In this document: piece by piece, positions 23,651-36,710 of the stretch | How the letters are laid out: every line of letters starts with the position of its first letter | How positions within the stretch are numbered: position 1 is the stretch's first letter | Assembly (NCBI RefSeq): GCF_024494645.1 | Contig: NZ_JANHDJ010000011.1 | Span: 1 to 52,546 of the forward strand | Direction of reading: 5' to 3' | DNA from: Halohasta litorea | GTDB taxonomy: Archaea; Halobacteriota; Halobacteria; Halobacteriales; Haloferacaceae | DNA length: 52,546 nt | Position numbers and translations under genes: made by a program | The notes under the pieces: model-generated | What the model saw: only the letters and a program-made list of their open reading frames with translations | Database searches by the model: none | What the model was told of the DNA's origin: nothing

Positions 23651-25327
23651 GTGCCCCTACCCCGTGAGTCTCGCCGCACTGTCTTCCGCCAGATCGCCCA
23701 ACAATCCTACGTCGATTGGCCCACGTACGAGTCTAGCCCGCTGGCCGATCGCTCGTTCCTCCCAGCGTTGGAGTCGGATATCCACACCGTCGCAAAAGTA
23801 TGGTTCAACCAGGATGAACACGAGACAGTCGAACCGTTCGTCCACGCAGTGCCGCTCGCATACGTTCAGTTCGATACCCACGACCGGTACACAGGTTCAA
23901 CAAGCTACGAGATGGAGACGTTGTTTCGCCTGTTCCTGCTGAAAGAGTGCCATGGCTGGGACCACGAGACTGCCCTCGCCGAATACCTCACCAACCACCC
24001 CGCTCTCTGTAATCAACTCGGCCTGGAGTCGGTGCCGAGCCAATCCACGCTGTGGCGCAGTTGGCACCATCGGTTCACTGCTGAACTCCAAGCTACCGTC
24101 GAGACAGCAGCGCGAACGATTCTGATTAAAGCGCAGAATGCGGGCGTTACAATCCCGCGTGAACCAAACCGACAGAACCGCAGACATAATGACGAGAGTC
24201 CAGAATCGGACCCATCTGACCAAACCGTATTAGAGCAGGCTGAGATAGTCACTGAGCAGGTGAGTCGCGTTGCGTTACCAGCGTTCTCACTGGACCGTGG
24301 CGAGGGGTGTGAGATCCACGAGAATGCCTACTGGGACTTACAGACGTATCTGGGCCTCCGTGAGAATCTGGCCGTCAACGAAGGCGCTCGGAGCTTCATC
24401 CACGAGTCCAATCGAGAGCGGACACCGCTCGGCCACGCCCATCGCGAGCATGTACGGAACCTCTCTATCGAACAGATTCGGGAGATGTACCGCCAAGCCG
24501 TGGGTCGCCTCTTGGATCGAGTCGCAGAGACGGAGGAGTTCTTCCGAGCTGGTATCGTCGCCATCGATATTACCGAGGATGATCCTTTCACAGGCGATAG
24601 GACGGATCACGAAGACGAGATCATCGGGACGAAGGAGAACACCGACGAGTACGCCTACCAGTGGGCGACGGTTCAGCTGGTTGGGAACGCTGTTCCAATA
24701 GTCCTCGATGCGCGCCCAGTCCGGAAAGGAGATACGCGTAAGGAAATCGTCGAAGACCTCCTGGACTCGGCAGAGGCCCTCGTTCACGTCGACAATGTGC
24801 TGATGGACCGAGAGTTCGATAGCCAGCACATCCTGGAGATGCTCAGCCAGCGCGGACTCTCATATATCGTCCCGAAACGGATGCAAACCAGCGAGAAAGC
24901 ACAGGCGAAACGACTTCTACAGCGCGATAAGGATCGGTATGAGACCGATCGGAAGTTACATCTCGGCGATAACGAGTGGCACTCGACGACGCTCATCTAC
25001 CGACGCAAAGAGAACTCCGAACACACCGATCATCAGCAGTATTCGGTGTTCATGACGAATCGGAATAGCGGGCTCCTTACTGAGTACGGATACAGATGGG
25101 AGATTGAGAGCGGCTACAAATCGATCAAACGATTCATGGGCGCGACGACCTCGAAGCACTTTGGCCTCCGATTCTTCTACTTCGCCTTCGCCTGTCTCCT
25201 GTACTCGATCTGGCGAGCGGTTGATTTGCTCGTGCAGGTACAGTTGACCGGTGAGTACGAACACTCGCCGATCGTGACTGCCGACAACACGCTGACGCTG
25301 GTGAAGAAGGAAACGGGAATCGGATAG
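23651..25327 (+). CDS. IS4-type transposase (558 aa)
   Basis: A complete-looking transposase beginning at GTG 23651. It shows an N-terminal DNA-binding region, a first Asp in IVAIDITEDDPFTGD, a second Asp in VLMDREFDSQ, and the IS4 signature YRWEIESGYKSIK with the catalytic Glu, followed by the hydrophobic tail RFFYFAFACLLYSIWR. It is related to but clearly different from the 45.8 kb transposase. A short stem-loop (25341-25354) and the shared right-end motif (25361-25373) follow. I could not identify a matching left terminal repeat, so the exact IS boundaries are open. Confidence 0.85.
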   Translation: MPLPRESRRTVFRQIAQQSYVDWPTYESSPLADRSFLPALESDIHTVAKVWFNQDEHETVEPFVHAVPLAYVQFDTHDRYTGSTSYEMETLFRLFLLKECHGWDHETALAEYLTNHPALCNQLGLESVPSQSTLWRSWHHRFTAELQATVETAARTILIKAQNAGVTIPREPNRQNRRHNDESPESDPSDQTVLEQAEIVTEQVSRVALPAFSLDRGEGCEIHENAYWDLQTYLGLRENLAVNEGARSFIHESNRERTPLGHAHREHVRNLSIEQIREMYRQAVGRLLDRVAETEEFFRAGIVAIDITEDDPFTGDRTDHEDEIIGTKENTDEYAYQWATVQLVGNAVPIVLDARPVRKGDTRKEIVEDLLDSAEALVHVDNVLMDREFDSQHILEMLSQRGLSYIVPKRMQTSEKAQAKRLLQRDKDRYETDRKLHLGDNEWHSTTLIYRRKENSEHTDHQQYSVFMTNRNSGLLTEYGYRWEIESGYKSIKRFMGATTSKHFGLRFFYFAFACLLYSIWRAVDLLVQVQLTGEYEHSPIVTADNTLTLVKKETGIG

Positions 25328-25373: not shown

Positions 25374-25742
25374 ATCCAGAGTCTCGGAAATCCGTTAGAA
25401 TAGTTGCCTGCGGAACAAGAGCAGCCGTTCAGAAAGCTATCTGACGCGGATTCCACTCTCCGATTCGGCCGATACCACGCATTACAGGCCCGCCATACCC
25501 GCTGTAGTCTCAACTTCCACAACTTCGGAGGATAGGTTTTGATGCGTGCCTTCTATTCTCTCCGATCATTGTCGTGTAGAAATAGTATTAAGAAACCTTC
25601 TTGACCTGTTGTTCATCGATTGGCAGCACAGACATCAGTCGATTGGCCCCACTCGGGTTAACCAGCTACCTGCCCAGAAATTACTGGGAAAATTATGTTT
25701 TCGATTCGATGTATCTCGTTGGGAGGTACTGGTCTGTCCCGC

Positions 25743-25901
25743 TCATTTTATCTCAGAGTCCTCTGACATCTCGTCTGCTGATTCATCGGCATTACCAGTC
25801 GATTTGGTCCTCGTATTGACATCCTCGTCATCGGACCCAAAGAGCGCAATATACACCCATATCCACGCATTCGCTCGCTGTCGACGAGGCCCGACGTTCA
25901 T
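25743..25901 (-). CDS. Candidate 52-aa small protein downstream of an Idr box
   Basis: An open frame of 52 codons beginning three bases after the stop of the 34-codon frame at 25905-26009. The product has a basic start (MNVGPRRQRAN), one short hydrophobic stretch (AWIWVYIALFG) and a strongly acidic tail (GSDDEDVN to DEMSEDSE), a typical haloarchaeal composition. No family recognised. Support is positional (tandem to a leaderless iron-box promoter) and compositional only. Confidence 0.35.
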   Translation of the reverse strand: MNVGPRRQRANAWIWVYIALFGSDDEDVNTRTKSTGNADESADEMSEDSEIK

Positions 25902-25904
25902 TTG

Positions 25905-26009
25905 TCAGGCCCTCCGAATCAAATGGCTTCGCACGATTCGTTGACACTCGTGACAAGTCGTATCGAATGCGCCGGGGGAGTTGGTTGTGTTTGTCGAATA
26001 GAGACTCAT
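25905..26009 (-). CDS. Candidate 34-aa CxxC mini-protein under an Idr box
   Basis: A 34-codon frame whose ATG lies about 27 bases past a TATA-like AATATATTTT and 12 bases past a TTAGG-type iron box, exactly the leaderless layout of the two large iron promoters at 36.7 and 44.1 kb. The product ends DTTCHECQRIVRSHLIRRA, with a single Cys-x2-Cys (Cys19, Cys22) that could bind Fe or Zn, and a basic tail. No homologue recognised. Confidence 0.4.
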   Translation of the reverse strand: MSLYSTNTTNSPGAFDTTCHECQRIVRSHLIRRA

Positions 26010-26020
26010 CGCTACTGAAT

Positions 26021-26034
26021 TTAGGTTAGGCTAA
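26021..26034. promoter_or_regulatory. Idr/DtxR-type iron box
   Basis: TTAGGTTAGGCTAA, a near-palindrome matching TTAGG-N4-CCTAA at 12 of 14 positions or better, next to a TATA-like AAATATATT. Read leftwards it fits the 34-codon frame. Read rightwards, dpsA is about 315 bases away, beyond degraded sequence. Confidence 0.7.
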
Positions 26035-26040
26035 AATATA

Positions 26041-26271
26041 TTAGTTTTTGCCCGGCGCGGTTGCGTCGGTGCTGCCGGGGATTTCGATTTTGATTTCGAG
26101 TTCCGGCTCGTGCATTTCCTTAGAATTGACTTCTAACTAGATGGGTTCGCCGACCTCGACAGAACGCGTACGGATGTGGTAGAACTCTTCATTAGCCGAG
26201 ACTGTTGCAAGCGGGCCAACGAGACTGTCGAAGACAAATGACAGGTACAAAGAGACATCGAATCCATCCAT
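26041..26271 (-). pseudogene. Partial, rearranged copy of an amphi-Trp domain gene
   Basis: The last 34 codons (MHEPELEIKIEIPGSTDATAP) duplicate the C-terminus of the amphi-Trp gene at 26937-27227. They are separated by an in-frame TAG (26137-26139, where the other copy has GAG) from an unrelated 44-codon open frame starting 26271. The N-terminal half of the domain is missing. It is a recombination scar lying between the iron box and dpsA. Confidence 0.6.
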
Positions 26272-26349: not shown

Positions 26350-26895
26350 ATGAACACTGAAAAGCGGACCAATCAGAAAGCGGGCACTGTCGAATCGAAC
26401 GCACTCAGACTCGACGAAAAGAAGGCCGAGCAGATCATTGACGCGCTCAATACAGATTTGGCTGACGCCTATGTGCTCTACCACCAGCTCCACAAACACC
26501 ACTGGAACGTCGAGGGCGCGGAGTTCCATGACATCCACGTTTTCTTGCAGGAGGTCTACGAGGACGTCGAGGCCGCCGCCGACGAGATCGCCGAACGCCT
26601 CCAGGCACTCGGTGGCGTCCCGCATGCGAGTATGACTACGCTTGCCGAGAACGCCACCGTCGAGGCCGAAGACGAGGACGTCTACGACATCCGAACCTCG
26701 CTATCGAACGATCTGGAGATGATGGGAAACATGATCGAGAGCATCCGCCAGCATATCGAACTCGTCGAGAATCTCGGCGACTACGCTACCGGGCACATGC
26801 TCCGCGAGCAGCTCGAAACGCTCGAAGAACACACTCACCACATCGAACACTACCTCGAAGACGACACGCTCGTTGTGAGCGAGTCGACGAATTAA
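26350..26895 (+). CDS. dpsA: DpsA ferritin-like iron-storage protein
   Basis: A 181-residue Dps/ferritin-like protein forming a dodecameric shell that oxidises and stores iron and protects DNA. The ferroxidase-site pattern is visible: HKHHWNVEG (His of one subunit) and FHDIHVFLQEVYEDVEAAADEIAERL (Asp/Glu ligands), on a four-helix bundle. The N-terminal 25 residues are the usual halophilic extension. A GAAGGATA purine stretch lies 6-13 bases before the ATG, and an AT-rich TATA-like region is upstream. Its position beside the DtxR gene and the uptake array fits iron homeostasis. Confidence 0.93.
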   Translation: MNTEKRTNQKAGTVESNALRLDEKKAEQIIDALNTDLADAYVLYHQLHKHHWNVEGAEFHDIHVFLQEVYEDVEAAADEIAERLQALGGVPHASMTTLAENATVEAEDEDVYDIRTSLSNDLEMMGNMIESIRQHIELVENLGDYATGHMLREQLETLEEHTHHIEHYLEDDTLVVSESTN

Positions 26896-26936: not shown

Positions 26937-27227
26937 TCACTCGACGTGCGGCGCGGTCGCGTCGGTGCTGCCGGGAATTTCGATCTCGATTTCAAGTTCC
27001 GGCTCGTCCATCCCCTCGTAGTCGACTTCTAACTCGATAGGTTCGCCGAAGGTGAATGGGAGTTCCCGCTGGTCGTCGTCGGTAAGCTCCTCGCCGTCCG
27101 GTAGCTGTTCGCCCAGTGAGATCAGAAAGTCGCCGAGCTCGCTGGCTTCGAGACGGTACTCCTGTTCGAAGTTGCGGCCCTAGCGGATCACCGTACGCTC
27201 GTTTTCAGGTGTGTCGGTATCTGACAT
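26937..27227 (-). pseudogene. Amphi-Trp domain gene interrupted by TAG at codon 16
   Basis: Reading from ATG 27227, 15 codons (to RTVIR) are followed by TAG (27180-27182) and then 80 in-frame codons with the amphi-Trp signature: FEQEYRLEASELGDFLISLG and ELEIEIEIPGSTDATAP, ending TGA at 26937. No early alternative start exists after the TAG. Everything downstream is unblemished, so the lesion is recent, or the codon is read through. Family function is unknown. Confidence 0.65.
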
Positions 27228-27271: not shown

Positions 27272-27697
27272 TCACTCATTCAATCGGTTGCTCAGTGCTG
27301 TGGTCGACGCCCGCTCGGAGGGGTCGATGCCGAGAACGGTTGTCGCCAGCCGGTCAGCCACCAGCGGGCTCACTGACCCCGCTAGTTCGAACGCCTCGGC
27401 GTCGGGATCGGCGAGATCGAGTACGTCGTCGAAAAAGCGACGCAACACCAGATACGACTCTTGGAGTTCGACCGCGCGCTCGCGGCCCGCGTCGGTGAGC
27501 TGTGTGCCTTTATACGGCTCGTAGTCGACCAGCCCTTTGTCGGCCAGTCGCTGGAGCATCTCGGTGGCCGACGACGGCGAGCGGCCGAGTTCGTCGGCGA
27601 CCCGTCCCGAGGCGACCGGCTCGCCGCTCGGTCCGGCGAGTTGGTGGACGACCAACAGGTACTGTGCGGCGTCGCTCATCAGTTCACCGTCCGCCAA
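27272..27697 (-). CDS. DtxR-family metal-dependent repressor (Idr/SirR-like)
   Basis: A 141-residue regulator of the DtxR/IdeR/SirR class. The winged helix covers about residues 8-70 (VADELGRSPSSATEMLQRLADKGLVDYEPYKGTQLT), followed by the dimerisation/metal helices (ESYLVLRRFFDDVLDL, then AFELAGSVSPLVADRLA). It lacks the C-terminal SH3-like domain of DtxR. The canonical Cys/His metal ligands of the second helix are replaced by ELAGSVS, so metal sensing may differ. It is the likely protein that reads the TTAGG-type boxes in this locus. Start could be Met1 or Met7. Confidence 0.85.
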   Translation of the reverse strand: MADGELMSDAAQYLLVVHQLAGPSGEPVASGRVADELGRSPSSATEMLQRLADKGLVDYEPYKGTQLTDAGRERAVELQESYLVLRRFFDDVLDLADPDAEAFELAGSVSPLVADRLATTVLGIDPSERASTTALSNRLNE

Positions 27698-27764: not shown

Positions 27765-28610
27765 TCATCCGCGTCGTGTAAGATGGCGGCGAACGGTTCG
27801 CTGGCAGGTCTCGCAGTAGTCGGTCAGGTGGGCGATCGCCGAGAGGACGGGGTAGCCGACTGTAAGCGGCTGATAGAGGTACTCGACGAGCGTACTGTGT
27901 GAGAGGCTCGCGGTGGCCGTGTGGTTCGTCGTCCCGTGAAGCGTCGACTGGCGGTCGGCGGCGAGGGTCTCACACTGCTGGCGAAAGCTGGCCAGTAGCT
28001 CGTGTCGACGACTGAGTACCTCGAATCCGAGTTCCGAACACGGCTGGCGATCGCCGTCGATACAGTCGGTGATTTCCCCGCAGAGGTCGTCGGCTGCCCG
28101 CAGCTCGTCGGCCTCGGTGTCGAGTCCCTGTCGCATGGCCCGGAGTTCGGCCTGCGACTGGTCGACCGCCGAGCAGATCGCTGCCCGGAGGTCGGGGGTG
28201 AACGCCCGGTCGGTCGAGGAAGCCACCGCGAGGGCGATTTCAGGGCTGAGTTCCTCGCGGATCGTCACCAGCAGGGGTTCGGGCTCGTCGACGTCCTCGA
28301 TGCTGTGGGGGCGGACCGTCTCGGCGAACAGCGACCGAACCCGGCGGGTGGTGTCATCGTTGGAGGACTGGCCGCCGACGGCCGCCGAGATCGATCCCGG
28401 AGGGCCGGTACTAGGTGGCATCGACCGCGTCGGCGAGGATGGCGAAGTCGTCGGCTGCCCCGAGGATTGTGAGTCCGTGGGGAGCCGACAGAGCCCGTCG
28501 GCAAACCGGTCGAACGCCGCCAGCTTCTCGTCGACGTGATCCCGCTCGTCGCTGACCAGCCGACGAGCAGCGTCGAGCGAGAGTTCGGTCACCGGCTCCG
28601 GGTCGGTCAT
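27765..28610 (-). CDS. DUF7260-like haloarchaeal protein
   Basis: A 281-residue soluble, mostly helical protein with a Pro/Ser-rich linker (about 48-80). A C-terminal cysteine pair sits in DYCETCQRTVRRHL and another Cys in DDLCGEITDC. Probably DUF7260. No catalytic motif seen. Its start overlaps the upstream DUF7551 gene by four bases, so the two are co-translated and may form a complex. Function unknown. Confidence 0.6.
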   Translation of the reverse strand: MTDPEPVTELSLDAARRLVSDERDHVDEKLAAFDRFADGLCRLPTDSQSSGQPTTSPSSPTRSMPPSTGPPGSISAAVGGQSSNDDTTRRVRSLFAETVRPHSIEDVDEPEPLLVTIREELSPEIALAVASSTDRAFTPDLRAAICSAVDQSQAELRAMRQGLDTEADELRAADDLCGEITDCIDGDRQPCSELGFEVLSRRHELLASFRQQCETLAADRQSTLHGTTNHTATASLSHSTLVEYLYQPLTVGYPVLSAIAHLTDYCETCQRTVRRHLTRRG

Positions 28611-35513: not shown

Positions 35514-36692
35514 TTAAAATTCTCCGTTGATAATGTCCGCAACGCGCTTTCGGGAGAACAGCTGGTCCGATTCCGAGATGTCGTAGGTTCCATCGTCATT
35601 GTACGACGGGAACTCTCCAAACTGCTCAGGATAGATCTGCTTCGCAGCCATCTCTATCTGGAACAGATTATAAATTGGGCCCTGCATCGAATCTCCGCCA
35701 CCGTACAGCCGATCGTTCTGCACCGCGCTCAACTCCGAACCAACCGGATCGTCTTCGAGTTCGAGCATCGACTGATACCGGTCGTCGAATCCGCCCGTGC
35801 CGAAGTTGTGAATGAGAACGTCCGGATCGAGTTCGAGCATCGCTTCGAGGTCGTAGGTTCCTCCATCCGATTCGTACGTGCGGTCGCTCTCGGCGAAAAC
35901 ATCCCGTACGTCAAGCGGCCGATAATGGGACACACCGAAGCCCTCGTTGTCGATTTTGTATGGTGAGAACTCCGCCCAATCGTTCATTGCGACGAGTCCG
36001 ACTGTCGGACGTTCCGCTTCGGGTGGTAGATTGGATTCGACGTGTGCGACGAGTTCGTCACGAACACGTTTCAATGCCTGAATTCTCTCTGTCTCACCGA
36101 ACACCTGTGCGACTTTCGCGTACAGCTCCCATGCAGTGTAGTACTCGTAATCCTCGATCCCCGTGTCGGTGTGTGCTCGTGAAAACCGGTTCCCGAAGTA
36201 GGGGGCGACGTTTTGGGTGATTTCCTCGATGTCGTCCTCATCAAAGTCGAAATATTCCGAGTAAACCCGGTACCACGTCGGATCTAGGAGGATGAGGTCG
36301 GGGTCGACCTGGTAGATTGTTTCCTTATCGTCGTGGGTGACTGTTACTCGTGTCGACGGGTCGAACTCGACTCCGGGGAGCTGTTCGTAGTATCCGATAT
36401 AGAACTGATCTCCCATGGCTTCGATCGCCTCACCGTGTCCGCAAGCGACCGCCATATCCACGTAGTGCTTATTATACGTCAGTATCCGATTTGGTACCTC
36501 CTCGAACTCAATGGTTCCGACTGGTGAGATCGTCACCGAGTACGACTCATCAGTTGCTGTGTCTTCCTCGGTTGTCGGTTCGGAGCTCTCGCCGGTACAG
36601 CCGGCGAGCAGGCCGCCGCCGACCACTGCGCCGCCGTATTTGATCGTGTCTCTGCGCGTTGGTGCCTCGTGCACCGTCTCATCAGTAGACAT
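35514..36692 (-). CDS. Solute-binding lipoprotein C1, first gene after the internal Idr promoter
   Basis: A 392-residue FecB-class lipoprotein. Tat motif RRDTIKYGG (13-21), lipobox Cys32, Thr/Glu-rich linker, NLFQIEMAAKQIYPE and a VADIING tail. It heads the six-receptor half of the array and lies immediately behind an iron box (36697-36710) with a TATA-like element, giving a leaderless transcript starting at or next to ATG 36692. Sister of C2. Confidence 0.89.
   Translation of the reverse strand: MSTDETVHEAPTRRDTIKYGGAVVGGGLLAGCTGESSEPTTEEDTATDESYSVTISPVGTIEFEEVPNRILTYNKHYVDMAVACGHGEAIEAMGDQFYIGYYEQLPGVEFDPSTRVTVTHDDKETIYQVDPDLILLDPTWYRVYSEYFDFDEDDIEEITQNVAPYFGNRFSRAHTDTGIEDYEYYTAWELYAKVAQVFGETERIQALKRVRDELVAHVESNLPPEAERPTVGLVAMNDWAEFSPYKIDNEGFGVSHYRPLDVRDVFAESDRTYESDGGTYDLEAMLELDPDVLIHNFGTGGFDDRYQSMLELEDDPVGSELSAVQNDRLYGGGDSMQGPIYNLFQIEMAAKQIYPEQFGEFPSYNDDGTYDISESDQLFSRKRVADIINGEF
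36637..36656 (-). repeat. 20-bp identical Tat-signal coding repeat
   Basis: Identical 20-base stretches encode RRDTIKY in C1 (36637-36656), C2 (34253-34272) and A2 (30634-30653), while surrounding synonymous sites differ. Consistent with recent duplication or gene conversion confined to the signal region. Confidence 0.6.
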
Positions 36693-36696
36693 ACTT

Positions 36697-36710
36697 TTAG
36701 GCTAGCCTAA
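36697..36710. promoter_or_regulatory. Idr/DtxR box, proximal, internal promoter
   Basis: TTAGGCTAGCCTAA, a perfect 14-bp palindrome, 5 bases upstream of ATG 36692 on the reverse strand and flanked by the TATA-like TTTTAATATT. A bound repressor would cover the transcription start. Confidence 0.85.

Follow-up and report, generated by a model that had tools for sequence, protein, structure and literature searches.

A probable trimmed iron-operon junction in Halohasta litorea and a haloarchaeal small-protein family linked to iron boxes

What has been described of iron regulation in haloarchaea concerns mainly transporters, siderophore genes and regulators. Here we analyze two short open reading frames, ORF1 and ORF2, which lie behind an iron box in Halohasta litorea (assembly GCF_024494645.1, contig NZ_JANHDJ010000011.1, positions 1 to 52,546; this whole 52,546-nt stretch is the window referred to below). 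The closest described setting is that of the haloarchaeal siderophore operons encoding DUF7260 (PF23921): ORF1 ends with the same C-terminal ~20 residues at the exact stop position, and the gene order after this tail, ORF2 followed by a DtxR-family gene, is the same as in the window. ORF1 nevertheless lacks the full ~240-residue DUF7260 domain, its N-terminus is unrelated, and a Pfam search with it gave no match. A direct homologue of ORF2 from Halobellus limi (WP_160113943.1) follows the DUF7260 stop with the same 3-nt gap; that gene is situated inside a full operon without a box of its own, whereas ORF2 in the window has its own box and a truncated leader. Among the papers searched, none mentions DUF7260.

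Two groups of small proteins offer further comparison. In Bacillus subtilis, FbpA, FbpB and FbpC are small, basic, Fur-controlled proteins of the iron-sparing response (PMC7430163). The likeness of ORF2 to them is that of very small proteins placed under an iron repressor, a works-like analogy that carries no claim of sequence relation. In contrast to the basic Fbp proteins, ORF2 has a net charge of -5 and a predicted Trp-rich helix; it also belongs to another domain of life and another repressor family, and proteins of the Fbp type work on target mRNAs in partnership with a small RNA. The haloarchaeal zinc-finger micro-proteins are defined by two C(P)XCG motifs (PMC11241148). Proteins of this kind (HVO_2753 type, Brz) share the size range, and ORF1 has one CxxC; however, this single CHECQ comes from the DUF7260 tail, and ORF2 contains no cysteine.

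The reading we favor, with a probability of roughly 0.68, is that the locus represents the 3′ junction of a second iron operon (DUF7260–small protein–DtxR), trimmed to ORF2 behind its own iron box and responsive to iron. Its elements are as follows:

26021–26034, minus strand: iron box TTAGCCTAACCTAA, two mismatches to TTAGGCTAGCCTAA, directly 3′ of the TATA-like element AATATATTTT
25905–26009, minus strand: ORF1, 34 codons, stop TGA; ~13 N-terminal residues of unrelated sequence, then the final ~20 codons of a DUF7260 gene
25911–25915, minus strand: GGAGG, Shine-Dalgarno-like, 9 nt 5′ of the ORF2 start and inside ORF1
25743–25901, minus strand: ORF2, a complete frame of 52 codons, assigned to the iron-box small-protein family
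25693–25746, minus strand: remnant of a DtxR-family gene start, MSGTDQYLPTRYIESKT-stop, with an ATGA overlap with the ORF2 stop

Intact operons run in the order substrate-binding proteins, DUF7551, DUF7260, ORF2, DtxR, often with Dps nearby; DUF7260 and ORF2 are usually separated by 3 nt, and the end of ORF2 shares 4 nt with the beginning of DtxR (ATGA). In several genera, ORF2 homologues occupy this position and show the same two junctions. The window retains both canonical junctions: the gap 5′ of ORF2 consists of bases 25904–25902 (CAA), so that the junction reads TGA-CAA-ATG, and ATGA stands at the ORF2 end. The DtxR remnant, MSGTDQYLPTRYIESKT, matches MSGTDQYLLAVYIESQ from a relative's DtxR, and the frame stops after ~15 recognizable codons. 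Because the DUF7260 tail, both canonical junctions and the ~15 DtxR codons occur together, the locus is best read as an operon fragment trimmed to ORF2.

An earlier note on this DNA, made from the letters and ORF calls, had proposed that an iron box controls two mini-ORFs that could be iron-responsive small proteins. Its coordinates for the box, for the 34-codon frame opening at ATG 26009 with a CxxC motif (CHEC) and for the 52-codon frame three bases past the ORF1 stop (25901 to 25743, acidic in its C-terminal half) were all exact; its view of ORF1 as a small protein has to be replaced. A search with the 34-residue ORF1 across 148 genomes of the family returned the extreme C-termini of DUF7260 proteins mostly 260–290 amino acids (aa) long, and the matches nearly always started at ORF1 residue 12–19. 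The motif C..CQR.VR.HL.RR starts exactly 16 residues before the stop in loci with an open frame, and ORF1 carries the DUF7260 tail pattern C..CQR.VR.HL.RR[AVG]-stop. These C-terminal-only matches, together with the tail motif at a fixed distance from the stop, therefore identify ORF1 as a DUF7260 gene end. A purpose-built DUF7260 profile matched ORF1 only through its positions 242–261, and the DNA likeness of the region to relatives starts near 25966. By sequence comparison, ORF1 consists of an iron-box start fused to the 3′-terminal ~20 codons of a DUF7260 gene; no support was found for deriving its N-terminal half from the beginning of a substrate-binding-protein, DUF7551 or DUF7260 gene.

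The box at 26021–26034 shows the arrangement expected of a DtxR/Idr-type regulon, a palindromic box beside a TATA element. The perfect palindrome TTAGGCTAGCCTAA is the box 5′ of the substrate-binding-protein gene at 36692, and the window holds four sites with at most three mismatches to it, against 0.5 expected (0 of 100 shuffles reached four). The layout had been likened to that of two large iron promoters; the TATA-then-box register is indeed that of the strong promoters at 36697 and 44108, whereas the spacing from box to ATG differs, being 11 nt here and 4 nt at both of those.

ORF2 belongs to a family that we define in this analysis. A single-sequence search detected homologues directly 3′ of DUF7260 genes (E = 3e-11 to 1e-5), and ORF2 fits the family core R.RA..W..VY..LFG with an acidic tail (29–61 aa) at E = 4e-18, a value that comes from a profile containing ORF2 itself. 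Of 392 genomes from the order, 77 contain a match to the profile, and all nine matching genomes in a phylum-wide draw fall inside that order. Searches of Pfam and NCBIfam with ORF2 gave nothing above noise, and no model there covers the family. A weak match in one genome (G001), without box or context, was set aside as chance. The assumption that such frames fall below annotation cut-offs holds in part: the Halobellus limi homologue, 49% identical to ORF2, is annotated as a hypothetical protein, while for the homologue in Halobaculum sp. CBA1158 no gene is listed in an incomplete gene table. The net charge of ORF2 is divided between an N-terminal part of +3 and a C-terminal part of -8. AlphaFold places a helix at residues 9–21 with low confidence (predicted local distance difference test, pLDDT, 58) and leaves the remainder unstructured. 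The product would have a basic, Trp-rich hydrophobic helix followed by an acidic flexible tail.

To relate the family to iron boxes, 90 distinct ORF2 loci were sorted by their neighbor genes, the boxes not being used to find the loci, and a box was called at three or fewer mismatches within 150 nt 5′ of ORF2. Solo copies had a box at 35 of 44 loci, spread over 11 genera and 7 families, compared with 37 of 1819 background windows (2%; Fisher p = 1e-45). No box was found at any of the 24 DUF7260-embedded copies other than the window (p = 3e-11 versus solo copies), and copies with DtxR downstream but without DUF7260 had one in 5 of 21 cases. Related species are not independent; counted by genus, boxes are present in 11 of the 15 that have solo copies, and the excess is still very large. 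At many solo loci an ATG stands 2–13 nt past the box, as in leaderless iron promoters. This comparison shows the ORF2 family to be tied to iron boxes across haloarchaea, and the description of ORF2 as an iron-responsive small protein is well supported. The window fits the family setting (between DUF7260 and DtxR, or behind an iron box of its own), with a box 119 nt 5′ of ORF2, a DUF7260 tail and a DtxR remnant.

Seven loci, including the window, have a short leader frame after the box that ends -4 to +3 nt from the ORF2 start. The six other leaders encode 14–37 aa of unrelated sequence, and their stops lie -4 to +1 nt from the ORF2 start. By a shuffle test, such spacing is unlikely to be due to chance at the window (0.018) and at three of the other six loci (0.007–0.036); for the three -4 overlaps the test tells nothing, since the ATGA there is provided by ORF2 itself. 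Since the leaders share no sequence, ORF1 is read as a leader cistron and not as a conserved peptide.

Several solo homologues (L163, L213 (g23), L167, L168 (g25), L201, L214 and L215) had no detectable iron box, and their control may differ. In Halorubrum operons (L070, L071–L073, L080, L083) an iron box is located ~55–75 nt 5′ of DUF7260 or DUF7551, and ~8 nt further on an ATG opens another short frame ahead of the main gene; these frames are possible further leader cistrons.

We propose that under low iron a DtxR/Idr-type repressor would come off the box, and transcription would begin at or just 5′ of ORF1, giving a very short leader. ORF1 would then be translated as a disposable leader cistron, and ribosomes terminating at its stop would re-initiate on ORF2, a step suggested by the 3-nt distance between the ORF1 stop and the ORF2 start and by the GGAGG in the ORF1 end. 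In Haloferax volcanii, experiments have established termination-reinitiation for overlapping gene pairs (PMC6728339). The ORF2 product would most likely be a small effector or partner in the iron response, and our guess is that it might act at the membrane surface or on the neighboring DtxR-type regulator. The genetic link to that regulator and the works-like analogy with Fbp proteins suggest such a small regulatory or partner role.

The surroundings hold these further features:

27765–28610, minus strand: intact DUF7260 gene of the main iron operon (PF23921, 5e-66), C-terminal tail the same as in ORF1
27272–27697, minus strand: main-operon DtxR-family regulator, ATG at 27679, following DUF7260
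26053–26153, minus strand: relic of a gene that we take to be amphi-Trp-like, 85% identical to 26949–27049, broken by a stop, directly 5′ of the promoter

In this main operon, 2 kb away, and in the operon of a congener, DtxR follows DUF7260 directly, without ORF2. AlphaFold models the intact DUF7260 as helical (pLDDT 74), with no significant match in the PDB. The box segment was also considered as a recent copy of another genomic promoter; this was rejected, as only the amphi-Trp-like part has a match elsewhere.

That both frames are independent iron-responsive small proteins, with ORF1 as a metal-binding CxxC protein, is very improbable. Both are open behind an iron box and ORF1 keeps the DUF7260 tail motif, but ORF1 is a truncated gene end, the leader frames found elsewhere have unrelated sequences, and the two C(P)XCG motifs of zinc-finger micro-proteins (PMC11241148) are missing. 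A zinc-finger role for ORF1 was accordingly rejected: its single CxxC is inherited from the DUF7260 tail, where the motif varies even in full-length proteins. In the DUF7260 of congener G002 the second cysteine has been lost (CESRQR), and the first is missing from Halorubrum copies (LTECQR, LSECQR); the family can thus do without an intact CxxC. Least credible of the alternatives is that the box serves another purpose, as a repressor-titrating site or for the divergent, iron-related Dps gene at 26350, the frames being incidental; the Dps start is 316 nt from the box, the TATA element points toward ORF1, and the link of ORF2 to boxes is family-wide.

The main rival is a recently dead fragment: the remains of an iron operon, duplicated or foreign, in which ORF2 is still intact only because the deletion happened recently and nothing useful is made. 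We regard this as rather unlikely, although several observations weigh against the trimmed, iron-responsive unit and toward such a fossil. DUF7260 and DtxR are truncated on either side, the upstream amphi-Trp-like copy is broken, and a transposase gene adjoins. The GC content at third codon positions is 0.54 in ORF2 against 0.76–0.82 in neighbors, which could mean decay or foreign origin. ORF2 is absent from three other members of the genus, the exact locus occurs in one genome only, and the distance of 119 nt from box to ORF2 is at the long end of the range. The earlier note had counted broken homologous frames against function; these were found only in Halobaculum halobium (G107), where a dead DUF7260–ORF2 copy carries stops, and not in most homologues. 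On the other side, the ORF2 frame is complete: its start and stop, the GGAGG and the junction spacing have been retained, and the iron box is kept in an arrangement, box plus solo ORF2, that recurs elsewhere. The ratio of nonsynonymous to synonymous substitution (dN/dS) of ORF2 against relatives (0.34–0.55) resembles that of intact pairs (0.37–0.44; close pairs elsewhere mostly 0.1–0.6), but it sums over a long intact history and would be compatible with recent death. Taken together, we put the chance that ORF2 at the window is working and iron-responsive at about two thirds, judging from sequence. The proposal of the earlier note is thus partly supported, its ORF2 half being upheld and widened to a family and its ORF1 half giving way to a truncated-gene leader.

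The ORF2 family, whose members directly follow a box in at least 11 genera, offers a concrete candidate for a missing iron-response effector, and its genes are easily missed because annotation is inconsistent, hypothetical in some records and unlisted in others. The locus also gives haloarchaeal examples of leader cistrons positioned to couple translation to a microprotein. More tentatively, and at less than even odds, this haloarchaea-wide family without a model could be a dedicated iron-response effector or DtxR co-regulator, whose gene is carried in the DUF7260–DtxR operon or freed behind its own box, sometimes with a leader cistron that would serve only to feed ribosomes by termination-reinitiation.

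On a Halobellus limi plasmid (L069/L221), the DtxR frame following ORF2 ends early (MSGADRHRRLRA-stop), with DUF7260 and ORF2 intact, a second case of ORF2 outlasting its DtxR partner. Behind the main-operon DtxR of the window, the gene at 26938–27227 (minus strand), which we likewise take to be amphi-Trp-like, has an in-frame TAG at 27182–27180 in place of the CAG of congener G002; another contig (C32:264274-264373) carries an intact copy. The transposase gene adjoining the locus spans 23651–25327. Beside it, a stretch of ~120–150 nt within 25400–25558, separate from the finding reported here, recurs in many haloarchaeal plasmids (matches in 88 records), mostly unannotated and next to a transposase gene, also in Halorientalis; it is probably the end of an insertion element.
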